This document shows positions 180 to 37,114 of a DNA stretch of 38,256 bases, in pieces. Both the position numbers and the translations under genes were made by a program. How positions within the stretch are numbered: position 1 is the stretch's first letter; each line of letters starts with the position of its first letter. The stretch is from a virus, in the IMG/VR virus record IMGVR_UViG_3300045282_000074, positions 1 through 38,256 of that record; one strand, given 5' to 3'. The notes beneath the pieces were generated by a model, which had not been told where the DNA came from, made no database searches, and saw nothing but the letters and a program-made list of their open reading frames with translations.

Positions 180-326
180 TCATCCCTTGATACCATACAA
201 CGTAGTAGACAAAGGAACTACCATAGGATCTACCACATCCACATGTGCACACACATACACTGATGGGTAGGTAGCAACACTCAGTATGTAATCACTTGGC
301 TGATCACTGATAGTAATCTCATTCAT
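180..326 (-). CDS. 48-residue hypothetical protein, duplicate relative of the next gene
   Basis: This short frame begins with ATG at 326, overlapping the stop of the RNA-polymerase-like gene by eight bases (ATGAATGA), and ends at a TGA seven bases before the next start. No strong Shine-Dalgarno sequence is seen, so translation probably depends on coupling to the gene ahead. Residues 6-13 (SDQPSDYI) match the N-terminus of the downstream gene (SDQPTEYM). The remainder is hydrophobic with many valines but has no clear membrane helix. The similarity covers about 42 bases of DNA around each start, which supports local duplication with later divergence of the C-terminal half. I do not recognise a function. 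Confidence 0.65.
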   Translation of the reverse strand: MNEITISDQPSDYILSVATYPSVYVCAHVDVVDPMVVPLSTTLYGIKG

Positions 327-3030
327 TGATGCCAACCTTAAGTGTTGACAAAGGAATGCCCAACTGATCTGCTACTTCTATCTGAGTGTAACCAGACTTC
401 AACATCTGCTGTGCCCTGAGGCGCTGGGTACCTGTTAGGGTAGCCTTGGGCTTAGGCGTGGCCAGCTTCTTGACTGTATCAAGATCACTGTTAGTAAGGA
501 TCTGACTAAGCTTGTGATTGCTAATGGCACCCGCTTGAATAGCGTCCCATTCTTTCTGGGTGATCTCAATACGAGTCTTGCCTGCACCTGTTCTAACTCG
601 AGCTTCAGCAAGAGTTTGATTCTTTACCTTCTTCAGTGTTGACTCATCCATCTCAGGATTAGCCTGACGCTTCTGGCTTATCTGGGCGTCGGCAATTACC
701 TGGGCCTGTCTTTCAAGGGGGGCGTTCTTAAGCGCAATGTTGAGCTTCGCATCCAGGGAGGCTACTTCATTAGCATACACCTTTGTTGCACTAGGCGAAC
801 GAGGTGCGGGCTTAATCCCTACAGATTCCTTACGTGCCTGGTTAGCCAATGACTTGAGCTTATTGGAGTGCTCTGCATATTCTAGCTCGATAGGGGTACC
901 AGAAGAAAGGGTGAATGCATCATCGGTCTCAGCCAAACGCTTTGAGCTGACGGTCTTCTTGACAACCTCGCCTTTCCTATTCACAAACGTACGGCCTGTT
1001 GGCTCAAAGACTTTCTTGCCAGTAACCGGATCAACCGGTCCACCCATAGACGCACGCCTAGGCTTCCTCTGCTCAACGCGCTGTTCTGCACCGGCCCTTG
1101 TGATCAAGGTGGATGCACCAGATCGGGATGAGCCCTGATATTTGGTCTTCAGCTGAGCGATACCATTTGCTGCAGCCGAGCCCTTATAATCGAGCTCATG
1201 CTTGTCGGCATCGATCACAACCATGGAATGACGAATGGCACGAGCCTTTTCCTCATCCGTGGCACCCTTGATTGTCATATCGGCAATCAGGTTGGTGATC
1301 TTGCCCATCTCGATCTGATCCCGGCCTTTGACTGCATTGATCGGAATCATACCGGGGTATTTCGGAAACGATGCGTGAGGATCGAAACCCTTCAGCCCTT
1401 CCAACGGCGGAGAAGTTTTGATCGTTCCTCTTGCGTTGGGAATCGTAAGAACGTGATCTCCGTCGAAATCGGCCCCAGAAAGACGTTCGGCAACCTTATG
1501 ATGAATGCCGATAGCATCAGGCGCCTGGACACCGATCAGCTTCTTGGCTTCACGGTTACGATTGTTGACAGTCAACTCTGGGATCTCGAACGTACCACCA
1601 TGCGGGAACCGAACCAACGCCAACCTCGTACCGTCACGATAAGTCGGCGCATAGATCTCCGATGGCTTCAACGAAGAGATAGGGAGAATCACCTTCGTTG
1701 CCTGGCTGGGAAACGAGATGGCCTTAAGATCAACTGCGGCGGCATCCGTCTCGTCAGCGAAGGTTTCGAGCAACTTCTTCTTCACCGCCGGATTCGTAAG
1801 CGAGTTGATCGCTTCGAAATCGCTGACTCGACGCTCATACGTCATGTTGAGCTGAGTCTTTGCCAGGGCAGGCGTCTGCTTGGAAAGAACCTGTGACGAG
1901 ATGCTCTTTGACCAAGTCTCCCAGTCACCTTCTTCATTGATGATGTTCATCGCCGAAGAAACCTTTTCCTTGCCTGACGAATCCTTCGTCGTGATCTGGC
2001 GCTTGATCTGAGCACCGAAAGGATTATTCTCGTCAACGTTCCCGTGAATATCCTTCTCCATCTCCTTCATGGCATCCTTCTTGCGCCCTGTGCTCGCTTT
2101 GTTCGTATTGAACACAAGATCAGTGCCCTCAGGAAGATCATCCTTGTACATCGCCATACCCTTGAGGTAATGCGTACCGTCGACTGCGATTCGAACCTGT
2201 GCGTACTTGGCGGATCCGAGAGACAGATCCTTCACGCCAGGACGAACGTAGATAACGCCGTCGGCCTTACCACCACCATCTTCAGCATAGTTGACGCCTA
2301 CTCGGCGTGAGCTCACAGAGATCGGTGGCTTGGGGGCAAACCACGAATGCCCACTGTCCTCGGAGTACTCGTTGATCTGCTGGATCTCTCTACGATGCAG
2401 CCACGCATCTTTCTGCGTCGTACCAGGCATGGCCAGAACCTTGTACGTGGTCTGCTGATCTTTGGCCGTGACCTGCGGAGTCTTGAGCGTGTGGACTTTG
2501 TAGCCCTTCTCCTCGAGAATGCCGATCGCAGCCTGCATCTTGTCCTTACTGATACCGAACCTGCCGCCGTCAGAGATGGGCAGAGACGCTTCAACGCCTC
2601 GTCCGACGTCGACCCACTTCTTCTCCTGAACCTGACGCTCGAGCATGTCTGCTGTTGCCGTGAGCACAGCAGCACGATCCTTACGACCAGGAGCAAGCAG
2701 CGAGCGAACGGTGGATTCGTTGAGCCCACCCATACGCTCACCGATGGCGCTGTTCGACAAACCCTTGTCCTTCAGACGCTGAGCCTGATTGATCCGCTCC
2801 TGCGTCTGCTGGTTGAGGGCGATCGTGCGAGCAGCGGTGAGCTGATTCCTCGTAATGCCCAAGCCACGAGCAATCTCGGTATCCGACAGACCTTGCTTTC
2901 GAAGCATGTCGAGATGATCGAGATAGCTTCGATTACGTGTACTCTGTGAACCACCAGATCCCCACGGATAACGGCCTGACTTTCGAAGGATGCCGTAATG
3001 CGCGAGATACTGATCTTCAGCAATAATCAC
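319..3030 (-). CDS. Putative YonO-like single-subunit RNA polymerase with HTH domains (903 aa)
   Basis: The diagnostic feature is SGADFDGDHV near residue 520. DFDGD is the magnesium-binding loop of the double-psi barrel of cellular RNA polymerase beta-prime and of YonO-type one-chain phage polymerases. An upstream RFPHGGTFEIP segment near residue 475 fits the conserved R-x-P element that precedes this loop. Two helix-turn-helix-like repeats lie at about residues 38-75 and 80-115, and a third at the C-terminus (about 868-900), suggesting that promoter recognition is built in. The N-terminus carries HYGILRKSGRYPWGSG, a signature I associate with phage proteins of unknown role. Translation starts at GTG behind GAGGAGGA, overlapping the Cas4-like stop (GTGA). 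The likely role is transcription of phage promoters. An alternative is a DNA-binding protein with a catalytically inactive barrel. The polymerase call rests on the motif, not on a search. Confidence 0.7.
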   Translation of the reverse strand: MIIAEDQYLAHYGILRKSGRYPWGSGGSQSTRNRSYLDHLDMLRKQGLSDTEIARGLGITRNQLTAARTIALNQQTQERINQAQRLKDKGLSNSAIGERMGGLNESTVRSLLAPGRKDRAAVLTATADMLERQVQEKKWVDVGRGVEASLPISDGGRFGISKDKMQAAIGILEEKGYKVHTLKTPQVTAKDQQTTYKVLAMPGTTQKDAWLHRREIQQINEYSEDSGHSWFAPKPPISVSSRRVGVNYAEDGGGKADGVIYVRPGVKDLSLGSAKYAQVRIAVDGTHYLKGMAMYKDDLPEGTDLVFNTNKASTGRKKDAMKEMEKDIHGNVDENNPFGAQIKRQITTKDSSGKEKVSSAMNIINEEGDWETWSKSISSQVLSKQTPALAKTQLNMTYERRVSDFEAINSLTNPAVKKKLLETFADETDAAAVDLKAISFPSQATKVILPISSLKPSEIYAPTYRDGTRLALVRFPHGGTFEIPELTVNNRNREAKKLIGVQAPDAIGIHHKVAERLSGADFDGDHVLTIPNARGTIKTSPPLEGLKGFDPHASFPKYPGMIPINAVKGRDQIEMGKITNLIADMTIKGATDEEKARAIRHSMVVIDADKHELDYKGSAAANGIAQLKTKYQGSSRSGASTLITRAGAEQRVEQRKPRRASMGGPVDPVTGKKVFEPTGRTFVNRKGEVVKKTVSSKRLAETDDAFTLSSGTPIELEYAEHSNKLKSLANQARKESVGIKPAPRSPSATKVYANEVASLDAKLNIALKNAPLERQAQVIADAQISQKRQANPEMDESTLKKVKNQTLAEARVRTGAGKTRIEITQKEWDAIQAGAISNHKLSQILTNSDLDTVKKLATPKPKATLTGTQRLRAQQMLKSGYTQIEVADQLGIPLSTLKVGINE

Positions 3031-4438: not shown

Positions 4439-4568
4439 TTGACCCCTCCTTAATAAGCTTCTGAGCTTCTGCTTCCTCAAGTATCCTGAGGATCGCGCTA
4501 GCATGGCTTTTAGACTCGGAATGCCACAAATCGACCCCAGAGTCATCCTTGACCGTCTTATCGTCCAT
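4404..4568 (-). CDS. 54-residue acidic hypothetical protein
   Basis: Begins with ATG at 4568 behind AAAAGGGG and ends inside the start of the HNH-type gene, overlapping it by 35 bases. The product is small and charged, with a predicted helix (SAILRILEEAEAQKLIKEG) and no membrane segment. It is the first gene after the AT-rich, gene-free leader at 4569-4816, so it heads the transcription unit that also carries the HNH gene. No family recognised. Confidence 0.6.
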   Translation of the reverse strand: MDDKTVKDDSGVDLWHSESKSHASAILRILEEAEAQKLIKEGSNGGTVEANRVL

Positions 4569-4816
4569 TTCAACCCCTTTTAAGCCTTGGACAAGGCACT
4601 GGCCTTGGGCAGACCTCAGACCTTGGGGCGGGGGTCTAAAATTTGCCAAGATTTTTTTAAAAGAAAACTCTTATAGAAACGCAACGTAATAGCTATATGT
4701 CATATATGCTCTTATTATTACTTATACTTATTGAGGTCGCGCGTACAAAAAGTATTTTAGAGCAGTTGTGACCACAAAATCGGGTAATAGCTAAAATGCC
4801 GCTTTCCCTTGCTGTT
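4569..4816. other. Gene-free AT-rich spacer with hairpin leader
   Basis: This stretch separates the SF2 helicase gene from the next unit. Next to the 54-residue gene it holds overlapping inverted repeats built from CCTTGG/CAAGGC units (about 4583-4627), which can fold in at least two exclusive ways: CAAGGC with GCCTTG, or GCCTT with AAGGC. That is suggestive of a regulated leader. The middle is AT-rich with a possible promoter. TAGCTATTAC occurs twice, and a 16-base sequence at 4639-4654 is repeated exactly at 4878-4893 inside the helicase gene. Confidence 0.5.
4721..4748 (-). promoter_or_regulatory. Possible sigma70-type promoter
   Basis: On the minus strand TTGTAC is followed after 16 bases by TATAAG, in the AT-rich spacer upstream of the 54-residue gene. 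It is a fair but unproven vegetative promoter and does not match the TTCGCR-N14 family found elsewhere in the window. Confidence 0.4.
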
Positions 4817-5989
4817 TCATAGCTTTTGCAGGTGTTTCTCGTCGAAGTCTCGAACGTTGAAATTCTTTTTGGCCGTCAAATTTGCCAAGATTTGGCGATC
4901 GACCATATTATTCGTCCGAATTGTGTAGTAAAACAGGTCGATATACGGAGTGTTCATTCTGTCGATTCTACCGTGACTTTGCTCCCAATTTTTGTACGAA
5001 TACGTGAGAGAATAGAAAATGGCCACATTTGTGGTGGTACAATTCCACCCTTCAGACCCTGCTACATACTGTACTAAATAGACCCATTTGGGTCCTGTTG
5101 GGAGCTCTTCGTGCTTGTGTCCGTTCCATTCTGCGACCGTTGTAATTTCATGCAATTTGCGAAGAATTTCAAGCTCGTAGTTGAAGTTGTAGAAGATGAT
5201 GATCCGGTCGTGTTTTTTCATCAACCTCTTCACAATAGCTAATCTTGATGGGTCTGAGTTCACAACTCTGCGCATCACGCTGAACAGATCCACGATGCTA
5301 CTGCAAGGACGATTGTTGTAAATGTCCCACCGGTTCTTTATGACAGCCCTGAGAAGATCTCCATCGTAGTCCGCTATGACCGTCTTAGACCGTCTGACAG
5401 TCGTCTTGGCGTACGGCATATGAACCAGAACAGAATCCCTCAGTTTCAGCAACCTACCTTCACCCAGATACCGCTGTACCTTCGGGAACTTTACATACGG
5501 CGAGTAGACGACATGCTCCCTGATGAACTCCGTACGGTTCTTATAGAACCCGTTACCCACGAACACAGGAATGTAATCCATCCATGTGTCCCCAGGTGTA
5601 GCACTAAGAAGAATCCAGCGGTTGTGCTTGGAAATCTTTTGGAACGCACGTACCCACGCTCCAGAACCAACAACTCTCTGCTCGTCGAAGATGAAGAAGG
5701 CATTACGAATCTTTGAATACTTGTCGATGTTGTTCCAGCTGTCGACAGTAAGTAGACCAGCAATTGTCGAGTCCTCCTCCTTCCCCACCACGAAGCCCGC
5801 GGCTTCTTTCTCCCAGTCCACGCTGTCGCGCTTCTTGGCCGTCGTGATCACATACAGATCCTCGCCCGTCCACGTCTGCATGTAGTAGGCCATCGCGACC
5901 CTACTCTTGCCCGTACCTACGCCACCCCATAAGATCGCTCCATCCTTTAGCTCATTCAAGGCCTTCTGCTGATGTGGCTGTAACTCCAT
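4817..5989 (-). CDS. SF2 DNA helicase (DEAD/SNF2-like)
   Basis: The 390-residue protein has a helicase layout: a Q-like opening (LQPHQQKAL), Walker A GGVGTGKS near residue 22-29, a motif II of the form FDEQ near residue 101, motif III LSATP near residue 130, and a motif VI SHGRIDR near residue 345. The C-terminal RecA-like half contains IIIFYNF and YVAGSEGWN, typical of motifs IV and V. It probably unwinds or remodels DNA in replication or recombination, and phage gene clusters often pair such helicases with VRR-NUC and RecB-like nucleases, as here. The start has an almost perfect Shine-Dalgarno (AGGAGGTGAT) directly before ATG. The gene sits just after a terminator, so it may be expressed by read-through. 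Confidence 0.85.
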
Positions 5990-6416: not shown

Positions 6417-6635
6417 CTATTCGCTTTTCTTAGATTCACTCTCAGCACGGCCTCGGGCAAACCACCCCGCGAAGCCCCCTGTGAGACCGGCTCCGATTGT
6501 CGCAAGCCCGGTTATGGCATCCTGAGCCACTTCGTCCCGCTTGCCCAGGATTATGAGTCCGACGATTACACCAAGAAGACTGATCCCCAGAACGACCACA
6601 GCTGCTAAAGCTATGAGTCTCCAGTCGTCTTTCAT
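6417..6635 (-). CDS. 72-residue two-helix membrane protein, holin-like shape
   Basis: ATG at 6635 overlaps the stop of the HicB-like gene (ATGA), which decides the start. Residues 8-31 form a strongly hydrophobic helix and residues 40-62, with glycine-rich ATIGAGLTGGFAGW, form a second; the tail is charged and serine-rich. Size and topology recall class II holins, but a better holin candidate lies at 19564, so this may be an extra holin, an antiholin or an unrelated small membrane protein. It belongs to a tightly overlapped operon running from about 8264 to 6417 that also encodes an RlpA-like protein. Confidence 0.7.
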   Translation of the reverse strand: MKDDWRLIALAAVVVLGISLLGVIVGLIILGKRDEVAQDAITGLATIGAGLTGGFAGWFARGRAESESKKSE

Positions 6636-18104: not shown

Positions 18105-18184
18105 AAATGAAATACAACACGCTTTCCAGTCACGGAAATTCCACGGCTGGCAGTCCCGGAAGTTCCAGGGCTGATGTGTTGTAC
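18105..18184 (-). ncRNA. Structured RNA element 3 (terminal stem with two 23-nt hairpins)
   Basis: Read on the minus strand, TACAACAC and GTGTTGTA form a terminal stem of 8 bp, followed by TTTCATTTTTT. Inside are two similar 23-base hairpins (plus-strand positions 18128-18150 and 18151-18173). Each has CAG/CTG ends, then a C-A mismatch, then a further helix ending in GGA/TCC around a three-base loop. The two copies differ at paired positions in a way that keeps pairing (for example C-G against G-U), which supports an RNA structure. It lies in tandem after element 2, with no gene between them. Whether it is a separate RNA or part of a longer leader of the 40-residue gene cannot be told from sequence. 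Confidence 0.6.
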
Positions 18185-18265
18185 AAAAGAGAGAGATCAT
18201 CTTCAGTGCCTTGTAGGTAAGGCTCTAGAAGTGGTACCTTGTAGGTAAGGTTCCGATCTCTCTCT
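18185..18265 (-). ncRNA. Structured RNA element 2 (terminal stem with two ACCUAC-loop hairpins)
   Basis: An 11-bp exact stem (AGAGAGAGATC with GATCTCTCTCT) encloses two hairpins with the same hexaloop ACCTAC closed by CCTT/AAGG. The first is lengthened by GGAA/TACC, the second by a G-C pair. A short T run follows (TTTTG). The 5' arm of the stem begins immediately after the -10 box of a family promoter copy (CTTAGT), so transcription would begin at or next to the stem. The plan is the same as in elements 1 and 3 though the sequence is unrelated. Confidence 0.65.
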
Positions 18266-18292
18266 ACTAAGGGGGATGTTTTAGCTGCGAAG
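18262..18292 (-). promoter_or_regulatory. Phage promoter family copy 3, variant -10 (TTCGCA-N14-CTTAGT)
   Basis: Minus strand TTCGCA is followed after exactly 14 bases by CTTAGT, with AAAACATCCCCC in the spacer. The spacer is shared with copy 4. It overlaps the C-terminal end of the 133-residue gene's stop region and points into RNA elements 2 and 3. Confidence 0.65.
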
Positions 18293-18293
18293 C

Positions 18294-18695
18294 TCAGCCA
18301 GTAGTGCTTAGACCAGCGATTGTGTAATGCTGGCCATACACATTTGGGAGATGTCCGTTCAAATGCCTGGACATCATGGAAAGCGGAACGCCTTCCTCAG
18401 CAGCTGCTTCCGTGACCGTCTCCCACATCTTGCCGTCTGAGAGACGCTTGACGATTTTCGTCATGTGACCGGCGTTATTCACTATGGAAGTGTTATTGAA
18501 CACAGGCGTGACGTTGTTCGTATTGAAGATCTGCGTAGGCGCAGAATGCCCCCGTAGGAGTAGAACTGCCAGTGCACCGAACGCGGCGCCAGTAGCACCA
18601 GCGATGTACACGTACTTGTACTTATCGACGTGAGCGGAGATCTCCTGATACTTCGCACCATCTTTGAACTTCTCGATTTTATCCTTCAACGGCAT
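18294..18695 (-). CDS. 133-residue membrane protein with NUMOD1-like C-terminal domain
   Basis: ATG at 18695 has AAAGGAG six bases upstream. A basic helix (PLKDKIEKFKDGAKY) is followed by one membrane segment at about residues 28-48 (YVYIAGATGAAFGALAVLLL), a polar asparagine-rich linker, and a C-terminal domain (about 76-130). That domain contains KIVKRLSDGKMWETVTEAAAE and SMMSRHLNGHLPNVYGQHY, which has the shape of the NUMOD1/IENR1 helix-turn-helix repeat seen in phage homing endonucleases. No nuclease domain is present. A membrane-tethered DNA- or RNA-binding domain is unusual. It is placed between structured RNA elements, so RNA binding is worth considering (inference). Confidence 0.75.
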   Translation of the reverse strand: MPLKDKIEKFKDGAKYQEISAHVDKYKYVYIAGATGAAFGALAVLLLRGHSAPTQIFNTNNVTPVFNNTSIVNNAGHMTKIVKRLSDGKMWETVTEAAAEEGVPLSMMSRHLNGHLPNVYGQHYTIAGLSTTG

Positions 18696-18720
18696 AATTG
18701 GCTCCTTTCGAGCATAGGGA

Positions 18721-18812
18721 AAAAATGAGAGACCAACAATCTCGCAAGTACTTCATAGAAGCGCGAGCGAGGGATACTTCATAGAAGCGTCCGAATTGTT
18801 AGTCTCTCATTA
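18721..18812 (-). ncRNA. Structured RNA element 1, probable discrete small RNA
   Basis: A 17-bp terminal stem (plus-strand 18725-18741 with 18796-18812, one G-U pair) encloses two exact copies of the 15-mer CGCTTCTATGAAGTA (minus strand), each a hairpin CTTC-TAT-GAAG. The first hairpin is extended by GGA/TCC with a C-A mismatch, as in element 3. The distal arm is followed by TTTTTT. A family promoter copy lies directly upstream, its -10 box touching the proximal arm. Promoter, stem start and U-tract together define an RNA of about 85 bases whose 5' and 3' ends pair. The gene at 18294-18695 follows the U-tract, so the element may also work as its leader. Confidence 0.7.
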
Positions 18813-18836
18813 AGGGGGATGTTTTCCCCGCGAACG
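18803..18836 (-). promoter_or_regulatory. Phage promoter family copy 4, variant -10 (TTCGCG-N14-CTTAAT-GAGAG)
   Basis: Minus strand TTCGCG, then 14 bases with AAAACATCCCCC, then CTTAATGAGAGAC. It overlaps the start of RNA element 1 and sits just after the terminator of the 57-residue gene. Confidence 0.7.
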
Positions 18837-19526: not shown

Positions 19527-19560
19527 GGGTCTCATTATATGCCGTGTTTCGATCGCGAAT
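19527..19560 (-). promoter_or_regulatory. Phage promoter family copy 6 (TTCGCG-N14-TATAAT-GAGAC)
   Basis: Minus strand TTCGCG, 14 bases, TATAAT, GAGACCCCT. It begins just after the holin stop and drives the 96-residue gene. Confidence 0.75.
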
Positions 19561-35812: not shown

Positions 35813-37114
35813 TTAGCCGCTTCTGACTACTGTCGCTCCGTTCCCATTTGTTGGGCTACCATTACCGATAGCGGATTTGACCTGATCAAGTGCATCTTGT
35901 TCAGGGGTGGTGACCGCACCTGTATCGGGCTTGGTCATCGTTGGCATGTTACTGTTGGTCAACTGATCAGCCTTCGCGTCCGGATGCGGCTTGAATCCGA
36001 TGATACCGCGAATCTCGTTGGCCGACAGGATCTCATTGCGGGTGAACTTGTCTGCGATCTCCGCAATGTTGTCAATTGGAATCAAACGGAACGGATCCCG
36101 GAAGAACATGACCGTCTGAAGCTGCGTTCGAGCTGTCTTGGTCAGGAAGGTACGACGCATTGCTTCACAGATAGCTGTCAACACAGGTTCGATGGTGCGA
36201 TTCCAATAATTCAGCATAGCCTTCTCGTCCGCTGTGCCGTTCATGACCTCCTCGGTCAAGCCGAGCTGACCGTAGAGCATCTTGGTCAGATAGTCGACCT
36301 GGTCCATGAGGTTGTTCTCGGCCGGACGATTCAGCTGCGTGATCTTCTCGGTTCCATCCGTGTAGGCAATCCCGTACTTGCTGCCCTTGAGCTGGAACTC
36401 GATGTCTGCTCGGCGCTGTTCCGCCTGTTGCCGCCGAGCCTCAGATTTGATCACGTAGGGAAGCTGAATGATGATGTCGAGTTTTCCAGAAGCCGACTGC
36501 TCGTCGACTGCATCAAGAAGATTCAGCTTGTAAAGAAGACGTTGAAGCGTGGAGTTCGGCTCGTTCATCACCGAGTAAAGCGGATTCTCCACAATGGCCA
36601 CAGCAGATTTCTGAAGAGTGATCTCCTCACGTACACCTGTGGCTTCGTTGTACAAACTCACTCGCACGTGTTTCGGATACCACGTGACGACATCGCCGAC
36701 TCGCATCGTCAGAATGTCGAATCCACCACTTTGCTCAGGACTGATCGACGTATCAACCGGGACAATCGCCGCAACGCCCCGATCGAAGAGAGTCATCACC
36801 ATGTCCTGCCGAAACGCACGAGCTGCCTGATCGATGTTGGCTTCGAGATTAAGGCAGTTATTGAGGCCGCTCTCAATATCTTCCTTGTACCGCTTCTCAT
36901 CGTCCAATCTGACATGCCGCATATCGACTGAGGCAACATCGATGCTCAGCCGTGTGTAGATCCCGGAAATGATCGAGCGTTCATTGGGAATTCGAAGCCT
37001 AGCCCGATCCGGACGTGAACTGTAACTGGCTCCGTAGCCAGAATACGGCTGTCTTGTTGGAGTTTGATTGGTAAAGACGTTCCAGGCGTGCCTCAATGTT
37101 GCGGCAAGTCCCAA
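35813..37114 (-). CDS. Portal protein
   Basis: The 433-residue protein starts at TTG 37114, about seven bases after AAAGGAGGTGA, so a non-ATG start is used for a key virion gene. The HK97-type portal features are visible: IYTRLSIDVASVDMRHV, VAAIVPVDTS, LPYVIKSEARRQQAE, and a stem region with LYGQLGLTEEVMNGTADEKAM. The C-terminal clip and wing part contains FRLIPIDNIAEIADKFTRNEILSANEIRGIIG, a typical portal end. Twelve copies would form the DNA entry ring. The gene lies directly after the terminase and 36 bases before the capsid fusion. Confidence 0.9.
   Translation of the reverse strand: MGLAATLRHAWNVFTNQTPTRQPYSGYGASYSSRPDRARLRIPNERSIISGIYTRLSIDVASVDMRHVRLDDEKRYKEDIESGLNNCLNLEANIDQAARAFRQDMVMTLFDRGVAAIVPVDTSISPEQSGGFDILTMRVGDVVTWYPKHVRVSLYNEATGVREEITLQKSAVAIVENPLYSVMNEPNSTLQRLLYKLNLLDAVDEQSASGKLDIIIQLPYVIKSEARRQQAEQRRADIEFQLKGSKYGIAYTDGTEKITQLNRPAENNLMDQVDYLTKMLYGQLGLTEEVMNGTADEKAMLNYWNRTIEPVLTAICEAMRRTFLTKTARTQLQTVMFFRDPFRLIPIDNIAEIADKFTRNEILSANEIRGIIGFKPHPDAKADQLTNSNMPTMTKPDTGAVTTPEQDALDQVKSAIGNGSPTNGNGATVVRSG

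Follow-up and report, generated by a model that had tools for sequence, protein, structure and literature searches.

Three short elements in a phage genome, which we predict to be small RNAs, share one plan: a terminal stem around two copies of a hairpin. On balance, we favor the view that these RNAs display their hairpins to, and work as a cognate pair with, the membrane-anchored helix-turn-helix (HTH) protein that is encoded beside them (18294-18695). We computed a promoter motif, terminator-like folds, covariation, conservation of the scaffold with exchange of the hairpins, linkage to the neighboring gene, and one joint change of hairpin and protein. From these we infer that the RNAs are produced, that they bind the protein, that the binding is multivalent, and what its effect is.

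The window (the whole stretch of DNA that we analyzed) is an entire virus record of 38,256 bases. The matches to its large genes are in siphoviruses of actinobacteria that are related to phages of Gordonia (cluster DJ, Deejayvirinae), Streptomyces, and Rhodococcus. Because relatives measure 43-61 kb, the record may be a piece of a larger genome. The genes that flank the three elements are on the minus strand, so we read the elements on that strand as well:

18809-18833, minus strand: promoter of element A, TCGCG-N14-CTTAAT, then GAGAGA; the -10 box is degenerate
18724-18811, minus strand: element A, a 17-18 bp terminal stem around two hairpins, then UUUUUU
18775-18789, minus strand: element A, hairpin copy 1, C-GCUUC-UAU-GAAGU-A
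18749-18763, minus strand: element A, hairpin copy 2, core identical to copy 1, outer helix different
18294-18695, minus strand: neighbor gene, the proposed partner; 133 amino acids, membrane helix at residues 29-47, NUMOD-like HTH domain at 78-131
18266-18290, minus strand: promoter of element B, TCGCA-N14-CTTAGT; the -10 box is degenerate
18188-18265, minus strand: element B, an 11-12 bp terminal stem around two hairpins, then UUUU
18235-18251, minus strand: element B, hairpin copy 1, ACCUU-ACCUAC-AAGGU and a 3' mismatched A
18207-18223, minus strand: element B, hairpin copy 2, GCCUU-ACCUAC-AAGGC and a 3' mismatched A
18112-18184, minus strand: element C, a 9 bp terminal stem around two hairpins, with UUCAUUUUUU after it
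18154-18170, minus strand: element C, hairpin copy 1, CCUGGA-ACU-UCCGGG, C.A mismatch below
18130-18146, minus strand: element C, hairpin copy 2, CGUGGA-AUU-UCCGUG, C.A mismatch below

A sequence-only reading of this DNA had proposed three elements with an outer stem and two hairpin copies, and had suggested folding each of them. All three were found. The predicted folding energy of element A is -49.8 kcal/mol, as compared to -25.3 for dinucleotide shuffles (z = -6.7), and elements B and C fold at -35.3 (z = -5.3) and -29.7 kcal/mol (z = -3.4). For each element, none of the shuffles was as stable as the native fold. Element A also has a tandem score of 18.5, while the maximum among shuffles was 11.6. 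The outer arms, which had been given as 17, 11, and 8 bp, needed slight extension (to the lengths listed above), and of the T-rich tracts that were said to follow the distal arms, the one after A is six T, but the one after B is just four T. Within each element the two hairpins are nearly identical: between copies, B has a compensatory change from A-U to G-C, and C has a change from C-G to G-U. Between elements the hairpin cores are unrelated, so it is the plan that is shared and not the sequence, as had been claimed. Below every hairpin in A, B, and C is a closing mismatch, either A.A or C.A. The cores do not occur elsewhere in the window, and this record thus gives no support for phage mRNAs with the same hairpin as targets.

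The elements had also been described as unlike any known riboswitch, tRNA, or CRISPR, and this held up. With Rfam 15 at the gathering threshold, there was no match in the window or for tandem units in 14 related loci (most of which have tandem units), and the copies in such units are mostly 23-34 nt apart and lack spacers. The sole Rfam match, to tRNA (42.8 bits, in L007), was for a different, non-tandem unit. ARAGORN found no tRNA in the window or in the loci tested. In the literature on phage non-coding RNAs, we found no paper that describes these RNAs.

Upstream of both A and B is the same 15-mer, AAAACATCCCCCTTA, which is part of a phage promoter. The consensus from relatives is TCGCR, exactly 14 bases, TATAAT, and then GAGA. 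Four protein genes in the window have the same layout with the exact spacing (promoters at 19539, 19075, 16632, and 6282), as do hundreds of sites in relatives. In relatives, if the motif is followed by GAGACC and a ribosome-binding site, then it leads into a protein gene; otherwise, it often leads into a terminal-stem unit with a U tract. Since the -10 box and the terminal stem of element A overlap, the RNA might actually begin within the 5' arm. Element C has no promoter of its own and lies directly after B. The spacing of 14 bases is unlike that of a sigma-70 -35 box and is reminiscent of activator-dependent phage middle promoters. Separately, the window encodes a 903-amino-acid protein (319-3030, minus strand) that matches PHROG_4291 (annotated as RNA-dependent RNA polymerase) and contains the motif ADFDGDH, as in single-chain YonO-like two-barrel RNA polymerases. 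It is a candidate polymerase for the TCGCR-N14-TATAAT promoters. Neither a scan of IMG/VR with the 15-mer alone (60 scattered matches, which were uninformative) nor a search for the promoter pattern in 85,000 genomes (55 matches over many phyla, not above chance, and hence no host signal) was useful.

We used the promoter to survey related phages in IMG/VR. Of 676 promoter-like places, 405 lead into protein genes and 198 lead into terminal-stem units, which were picked without regard to repeats. With a tandem hairpin defined as a score of at least 12, 32 of the 198 units have one. Just 0.3 would be expected from shuffles (maximum 2), so in this unbiased survey, chance is excluded as an explanation for the tandem design. 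As another control, we considered random positions of the same loci, which have a stem of at least 6 bp 21.7% of the time and of at least 8 bp 3.9% of the time. Stems of at least 8 bp were present in 97 of 156 promoter units versus 117 of 3,000 random positions, and tandem hairpins in 29 of 156 promoter units versus 13 of 651 chance units. Weak stems are therefore a noisy signal, but the class of tandem units is genuine. This class belongs to the phage lineage of the window, as 26 of the 28 loci that have such units encode proteins related to those of the window. (L175 is tandem by score, but it folds poorly and its locus encodes no such protein, and it probably does not belong to the class.) Repeat starts are mostly 23-34 nt apart. 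Scanning for tandem copies of the core of element A gave a single match, in a repetitive coding-like stretch, and scanning for those of element B gave none.

Many units behind the same promoters are non-tandem and are quite different RNAs. They include a recurrent family (fam1), which is also in 17 Gordonia phages, and tRNA-like molecules. The tRNA-like units (L007 4066-4132; L320 ~5635-5710; L324 ~4549-4630; L333 ~6462-6540; L323 12702-12775), which occur in Gordonia phages and ReqiPoco6, have a short loop such as GCAA or GAAA in place of the anticodon loop; ARAGORN calls none of them in the loci tested, and Rfam's tRNA model calls one. A recurrent RNA, GACACGAAUGUGUAGGUGAAAGACCUACC...UUUUCGUUGGA, is found in environmental, Gordonia, and Rhodococcus phages (L180 5106-5225; L069, L076, L087, L152, L156, L187, L323 13118, L321 11532, L008 2595) and has no Rfam match. 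A second, ACGUUAUGAGGCACU...AACUGCAGAUACUUCGGUUACCAUGCGU, is found at L159 9728, L089 3204, L005 4518, and L088 8806; in L159, L089, and L088, it is nested in frame in the neighbor gene.

Do the paired bases covary? In 29 hairpin pairs that were read from the folds (the scan required a 3-bp stem in both copies, and the register was chosen by hand), the copies differ at 47 of 288 stem positions (16%) and at 9 of 171 loop and mismatch positions (5%). Pairing was kept in 19 two-sided and 6 one-sided changes and was broken in 2, while random placement of the changes would give 2.1 compensatory and 33 broken. So covariation in relatives, whose absence the sequence-only reading had named as a reason to abandon the idea, was found. 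The cores of the copies are 92% identical, and the flanks are 23% identical, which is the chance level. The outer arms pair within a copy better than across copies (P = 1.5e-4, Wilcoxon test). Because the outer helices are unrelated, duplication is ruled out as the sole origin of the copies. As in the window, the hairpins are often closed below by A.A or C.A, and the 3' A is mostly followed by C. In 16 of 34 units, including A, B, and C, both copies are closed this way (about 24.5% is expected per hairpin). We also considered the likeness of some hairpins to pRNA, to retrons, or to the operators of single-stranded RNA phages (L258 has a bulge 2 bp below an AUUGA loop), but we view these as resemblance only.

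Among related phages, the scaffold is conserved while the hairpins are exchanged. Homologues of element B at L216 2923 and L232 3072 keep the frame GGA[hairpin]ACCACU..GA[hairpin]AC(U/C)GAA and differ in their loops (ACCUAC, UAAUUGUU, or GACACU), which are swapped in both copies. This alignment has two-sided changes in 6 of 30 pairs, from three sequences only. Another frame, again with exchanged hairpins, is common to L198 and L090. In a third, four-way frame (L159, L201, L213, L232, L122), 16 of 26 pairs have two-sided changes, and hairpin modules shift between positions. Also, L232 and Rhodococcus phage ReqiPepy6 have a second tandem unit behind the first and without a promoter, like C after B.

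Although A, B, and C have no Blast match in cultured phages, the class is present there. Arthrobacter phage Qui has, at ~46585-46760 of MN183282.1, a unit with a terminal stem of ~20 bp and three hairpin copies (z = -9.4), and Gordonia phage Rickmore has, at ~36703-36815 of MK376953.1, three copies of C-GCC-GUUUG-GGU-A directly after gene 52 (z = -3.0). By Blast, the Rickmore frame is also in Avazak, Captrips, Pherobrine, Artorias, FortCran, Perkunas, and ReqiPepy6, with a hairpin particular to each phage filling all or most of the positions. For example, Avazak has C.CCGU-UAU-ACGG.A, Artorias and unit 2 of ReqiPepy6 have A.CCUU-UAU-GAGG.A, and Perkunas has C.CCUU-UAU-GAGG.A. Conley has two units, with pairs of GUC-AUUGC-GAC and GC-AUUGC-GC, and its hairpins recur in environmental contigs (L105, L233, L090, L122). 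None of the hairpin RNAs of cultured phages is annotated, and some are overlapped by predicted ORFs. Qui gene 76 (MN183282.1 46655-46789) overlaps one and is probably spurious, and so, probably, is the start of Avazak gene 57 (NC_048822.1 38572). Taken together, the promoter, the terminator, the compensatory changes, and the scaffold with exchangeable hairpins bear out the earlier suggestion of small RNAs with a common plan (as predicted RNAs), and they support well a putative role as protein-binding scaffolds, which was one of the roles that had been suggested.

The candidate partner is the protein encoded at 18294-18695, which matches PHROG_27818. It has one membrane helix and a C-terminal strand-helix-turn-helix-strand domain (residues 78-131, AlphaFold pLDDT mostly 83-90). 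The model of this domain matches 8b6e (Z = 7.8, rmsd 1.5 over 51 residues), I-HmuI (1u3e, Z = 7.4 over 62), and I-TevI (1i3j, Z = 5.6), but all of these scores are below 8 and can reflect a common arrangement. For the NUMOD-like family PF22083, the L258 homologue scores 26.4 bits, just below the cut-off of 27 (E = 5e-6), and the window's protein has no match. Among the seven family members that we scanned, none has a nuclease domain, and Pfam finds no ToxN/AbiQ/CptN/TenpN-type endoribonuclease domain. The family's annotations vary (HNH endonuclease, membrane protein, or helix-turn-helix protein in MK376953.1, PP978771.1, ON970572.1, and PP758912.1); the label of HNH endonuclease is probably due to the NUMOD-like domain. 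Searching cultured phages with the window's protein (tblastn) gave no match, and we reached the cultured members via Rickmore.

Tandem units are linked to this gene family. Of 34 tandem units, 27 are inside or within 150 bp of a family gene, versus 14 of 91 other well-formed units (P = 3.5e-11, Fisher exact test), but the family profile was seeded from proteins of loci with tandem units, which favors linkage. With the window's protein as a single query, which is fairer, 18 of 32 tandem units and 11 of 91 other units are linked (P = 2e-6). A family gene precedes the Rickmore RNA and also each of the five homologues from cultured phages that we read. In many cases, the family gene is followed by the tandem unit, then by a small membrane gene, and then by a DUF6353 gene. 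In about 10 family members, the promoter is in frame inside the gene, between the membrane helix and the C-terminal domain, and in L005, L004, L090, and L169, the tandem unit lies in frame at that position. In genes with a nested promoter or unit, TATAATGAGAGG is translated as -IMRG-. Nested RNA units with promoter and terminator in these membrane/HTH genes (L005 4152-4249, L004 3055, L090 528, L169 1598, L203 4457, L230 11153) use the same sequence as RNA gene and as protein linker.

The hairpin and the protein domain appear to change together. There are 11 differences between Avazak gp56 and Artorias gp55, and 10 of these are in the last 36 residues (P = 7e-6, hypergeometric test). The RNAs of these two phages have 13 differences, 12 of them in the hairpin cores (P = 2e-5, hypergeometric test), with the identical change in all three copies. 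Artorias and Perkunas, which have the same hairpin, have 8 N-terminal differences and just three in the domain (A/Q, V/I, V/I); they have nearly all of the recognition helix in common, while their N-terminal parts are more divergent. In this one clean contrast, domain similarity seems to track hairpin similarity and not overall similarity; our case for joint change consists of that pair (Avazak/Artorias) and consistent neighbors. The 3' end of the gene adjoins the RNA, so one recombination block could carry both the hairpins and the domain. Even so, the divergence falls in the two presumed specificity elements.

If the RNAs and the protein are a cognate pair, the system might work as follows. 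The elements would be small RNA genes, with B and C perhaps on one short transcript, and each RNA would present two copies of a short mismatch-bearing hairpin on a scaffold that is closed by a terminator. The NUMOD-like HTH domain at the C terminus of the neighboring membrane protein would recognize the hairpin. The hairpin would be the specificity element, exchanged among phages along with the recognition residues, and the scaffold would be the constant part. With two or three identical hairpins, one RNA could engage two or three protein molecules, and the most likely action is that multivalent binding clusters, holds, or silences the membrane protein. The three types of hairpin in the window might serve the phage's own protein and possibly the proteins of rival phages. 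Several observations count against a cognate pair. A and B have degenerate -10 boxes, C is promoterless, and many units with the same promoter are non-tandem. With three types of hairpin beside one protein gene, one-to-one pairing is incomplete in the window. And NUMOD-like domains of solved structure bind DNA.

More tentatively, these could be parts of an inter-phage typing system, in which each phage has a recognition protein anchored in the membrane and, on a scaffold common to all, an RNA with several hairpins of the matching type. The hairpin would be exchanged jointly with the recognition helix, foreign-type RNAs would neutralize rivals' proteins, and the RNA gene would sometimes be nested in frame. 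With the same reserve, we would then expect several types to be in circulation among phages of Gordonia, Rhodococcus, and Arthrobacter and among those from the environment.

It had also been suggested that the RNAs are decoys for a host RNA-binding or defense protein, and we consider this unlikely, and less likely than a phage-encoded partner. Multiple hairpins that look protein-binding and identical, fast turnover between phages, a promoter of their own, and a location among small accessory genes would all suit a sponge that titrates a host binding, processing, or defense protein, as RNA anti-CRISPRs or CsrB do, and there are phage RNAs that block Cas proteins by mimicry of CRISPR repeats (PMC10651486). 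However, the absence of spacers between such closely set copies argues against this, and a decoy would not be expected to be linked to one phage gene family, with hairpins that adjoin its HTH domain and change with it.

It is similarly improbable that the inverted repeats are double-stranded DNA operators, that is, half-sites for a dimeric HTH regulator next door, with the RNA hairpins being incidental. The neighbor's domain does resemble DNA-binding domains (8b6e, I-HmuI, and I-TevI), inverted repeats are common beside regulator genes, and joint change of the site and the recognition helix would fit as well. But DNA sites do not readily account for G-U pairs inside the hairpins (in element A, in L159, and in Artorias, which has U-G where Avazak has U-A), for recurrent A.A or C.A mismatches, for outer helices that differ in sequence and yet pair within each copy, or for units that are bounded by a promoter and a terminator. 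A membrane anchor would also be unusual in an operator-binding protein.

We doubt still more that this is a type III toxin-antitoxin pair in the strict sense, with a toxic membrane protein and an RNA antitoxin. The tandem repeats before a terminator, the fast-evolving small protein gene beside them, and the presumed cognate specificity that diversifies between close relatives are all as expected, but there is a membrane helix and a NUMOD-like domain instead of a ToxN/AbiQ-like domain, and in several phages the RNA lies inside a reading frame, which is unlike known systems. Finally, the units end in U tracts between genes, and chance often yields terminal stems of 6-7 bp, but it is very unlikely that they are just elaborate intrinsic terminators or 3' UTR structures that lack a trans function and whose copies arose by local duplication, given the dedicated promoters directly upstream, the identical cores on unrelated outer helices, the strong compensatory change, and the coordinated exchange of all copies.

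If the cognate-pair reading is true, then these phages encode a system for RNA-protein recognition whose specificity can be exchanged: the RNA frame is constant, the hairpin is swappable and present in two or three copies, and the binding domain of a membrane protein follows the hairpin. No Rfam family covers the RNAs. They occur in cultured phages and are directly testable there, in Rickmore (host Gordonia terrae), Avazak and Artorias (G. rubripertincta), and Qui (Arthrobacter globiformis). They might be a source of natural hairpin-protein pairs for RNA tethering, with a specificity code that is legible in the sequence. More broadly, the "empty" mid-genome stretches among the small membrane genes of these phages are predicted to contain many small RNA genes. 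The design recurs, there is a candidate partner for it, and cultured phages have it, all of which makes it more interesting than was first stated.

How does this compare to known systems? A 50-bp (or 43-bp) TATAAT motif was noted in the Gordonia phages Vardy, Conley, and Mossy (PMC9671010, PMC10868162, PMC11008172). The 50-bp motif of Gordonia cluster DJ and its mid-genome region are identical to the promoter motif and region described here, but those reports read the motif as regulating or starting protein genes, and none of them describes RNA genes behind it. The C-terminal domain of the neighbor protein is predicted to have the NUMOD-like DNA-binding fold of the homing endonucleases I-HmuI and I-TevI; unlike them, it comes with a membrane helix, and no nuclease domain was found.

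In type III toxin-antitoxin systems, the RNAs (ToxI, CptI, TenpI, and antiQ) are short tandem repeats with a terminator beside a protein gene, with cognate specificity. The units described here likewise have tandem RNA repeats and a terminator that adjoin a protein gene, but the mismatched hairpins lie inside a closing stem, and the protein is membrane-anchored and NUMOD-like, with no endoribonuclease toxin domain found. The CsrB and RsmZ sponges have several copies of a protein-binding hairpin in one RNA. Unlike those, the loops of A (UAU), B (ACCUAC), and C (ACU/AUU) contain no GGA, the loops vary between phages, and the partner is apparently phage-encoded. In a CRISPR array, unique spacers of about the length of a repeat lie between the repeats; here, there are no spacers, repeat starts are closely set in most units, and the hairpin differs for each element. 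Racr RNA anti-CRISPRs (solitary repeat units) are small phage RNAs that copy a host's CRISPR repeat (PMC10651486). Like Racr, the elements would be small phage RNAs with a putative protein-binding hairpin; A and B have the promoter motif, and their transcription is predicted. Unlike Racr, these RNAs carry two or three identical hairpins on a common scaffold and are linked to a phage membrane HTH gene.
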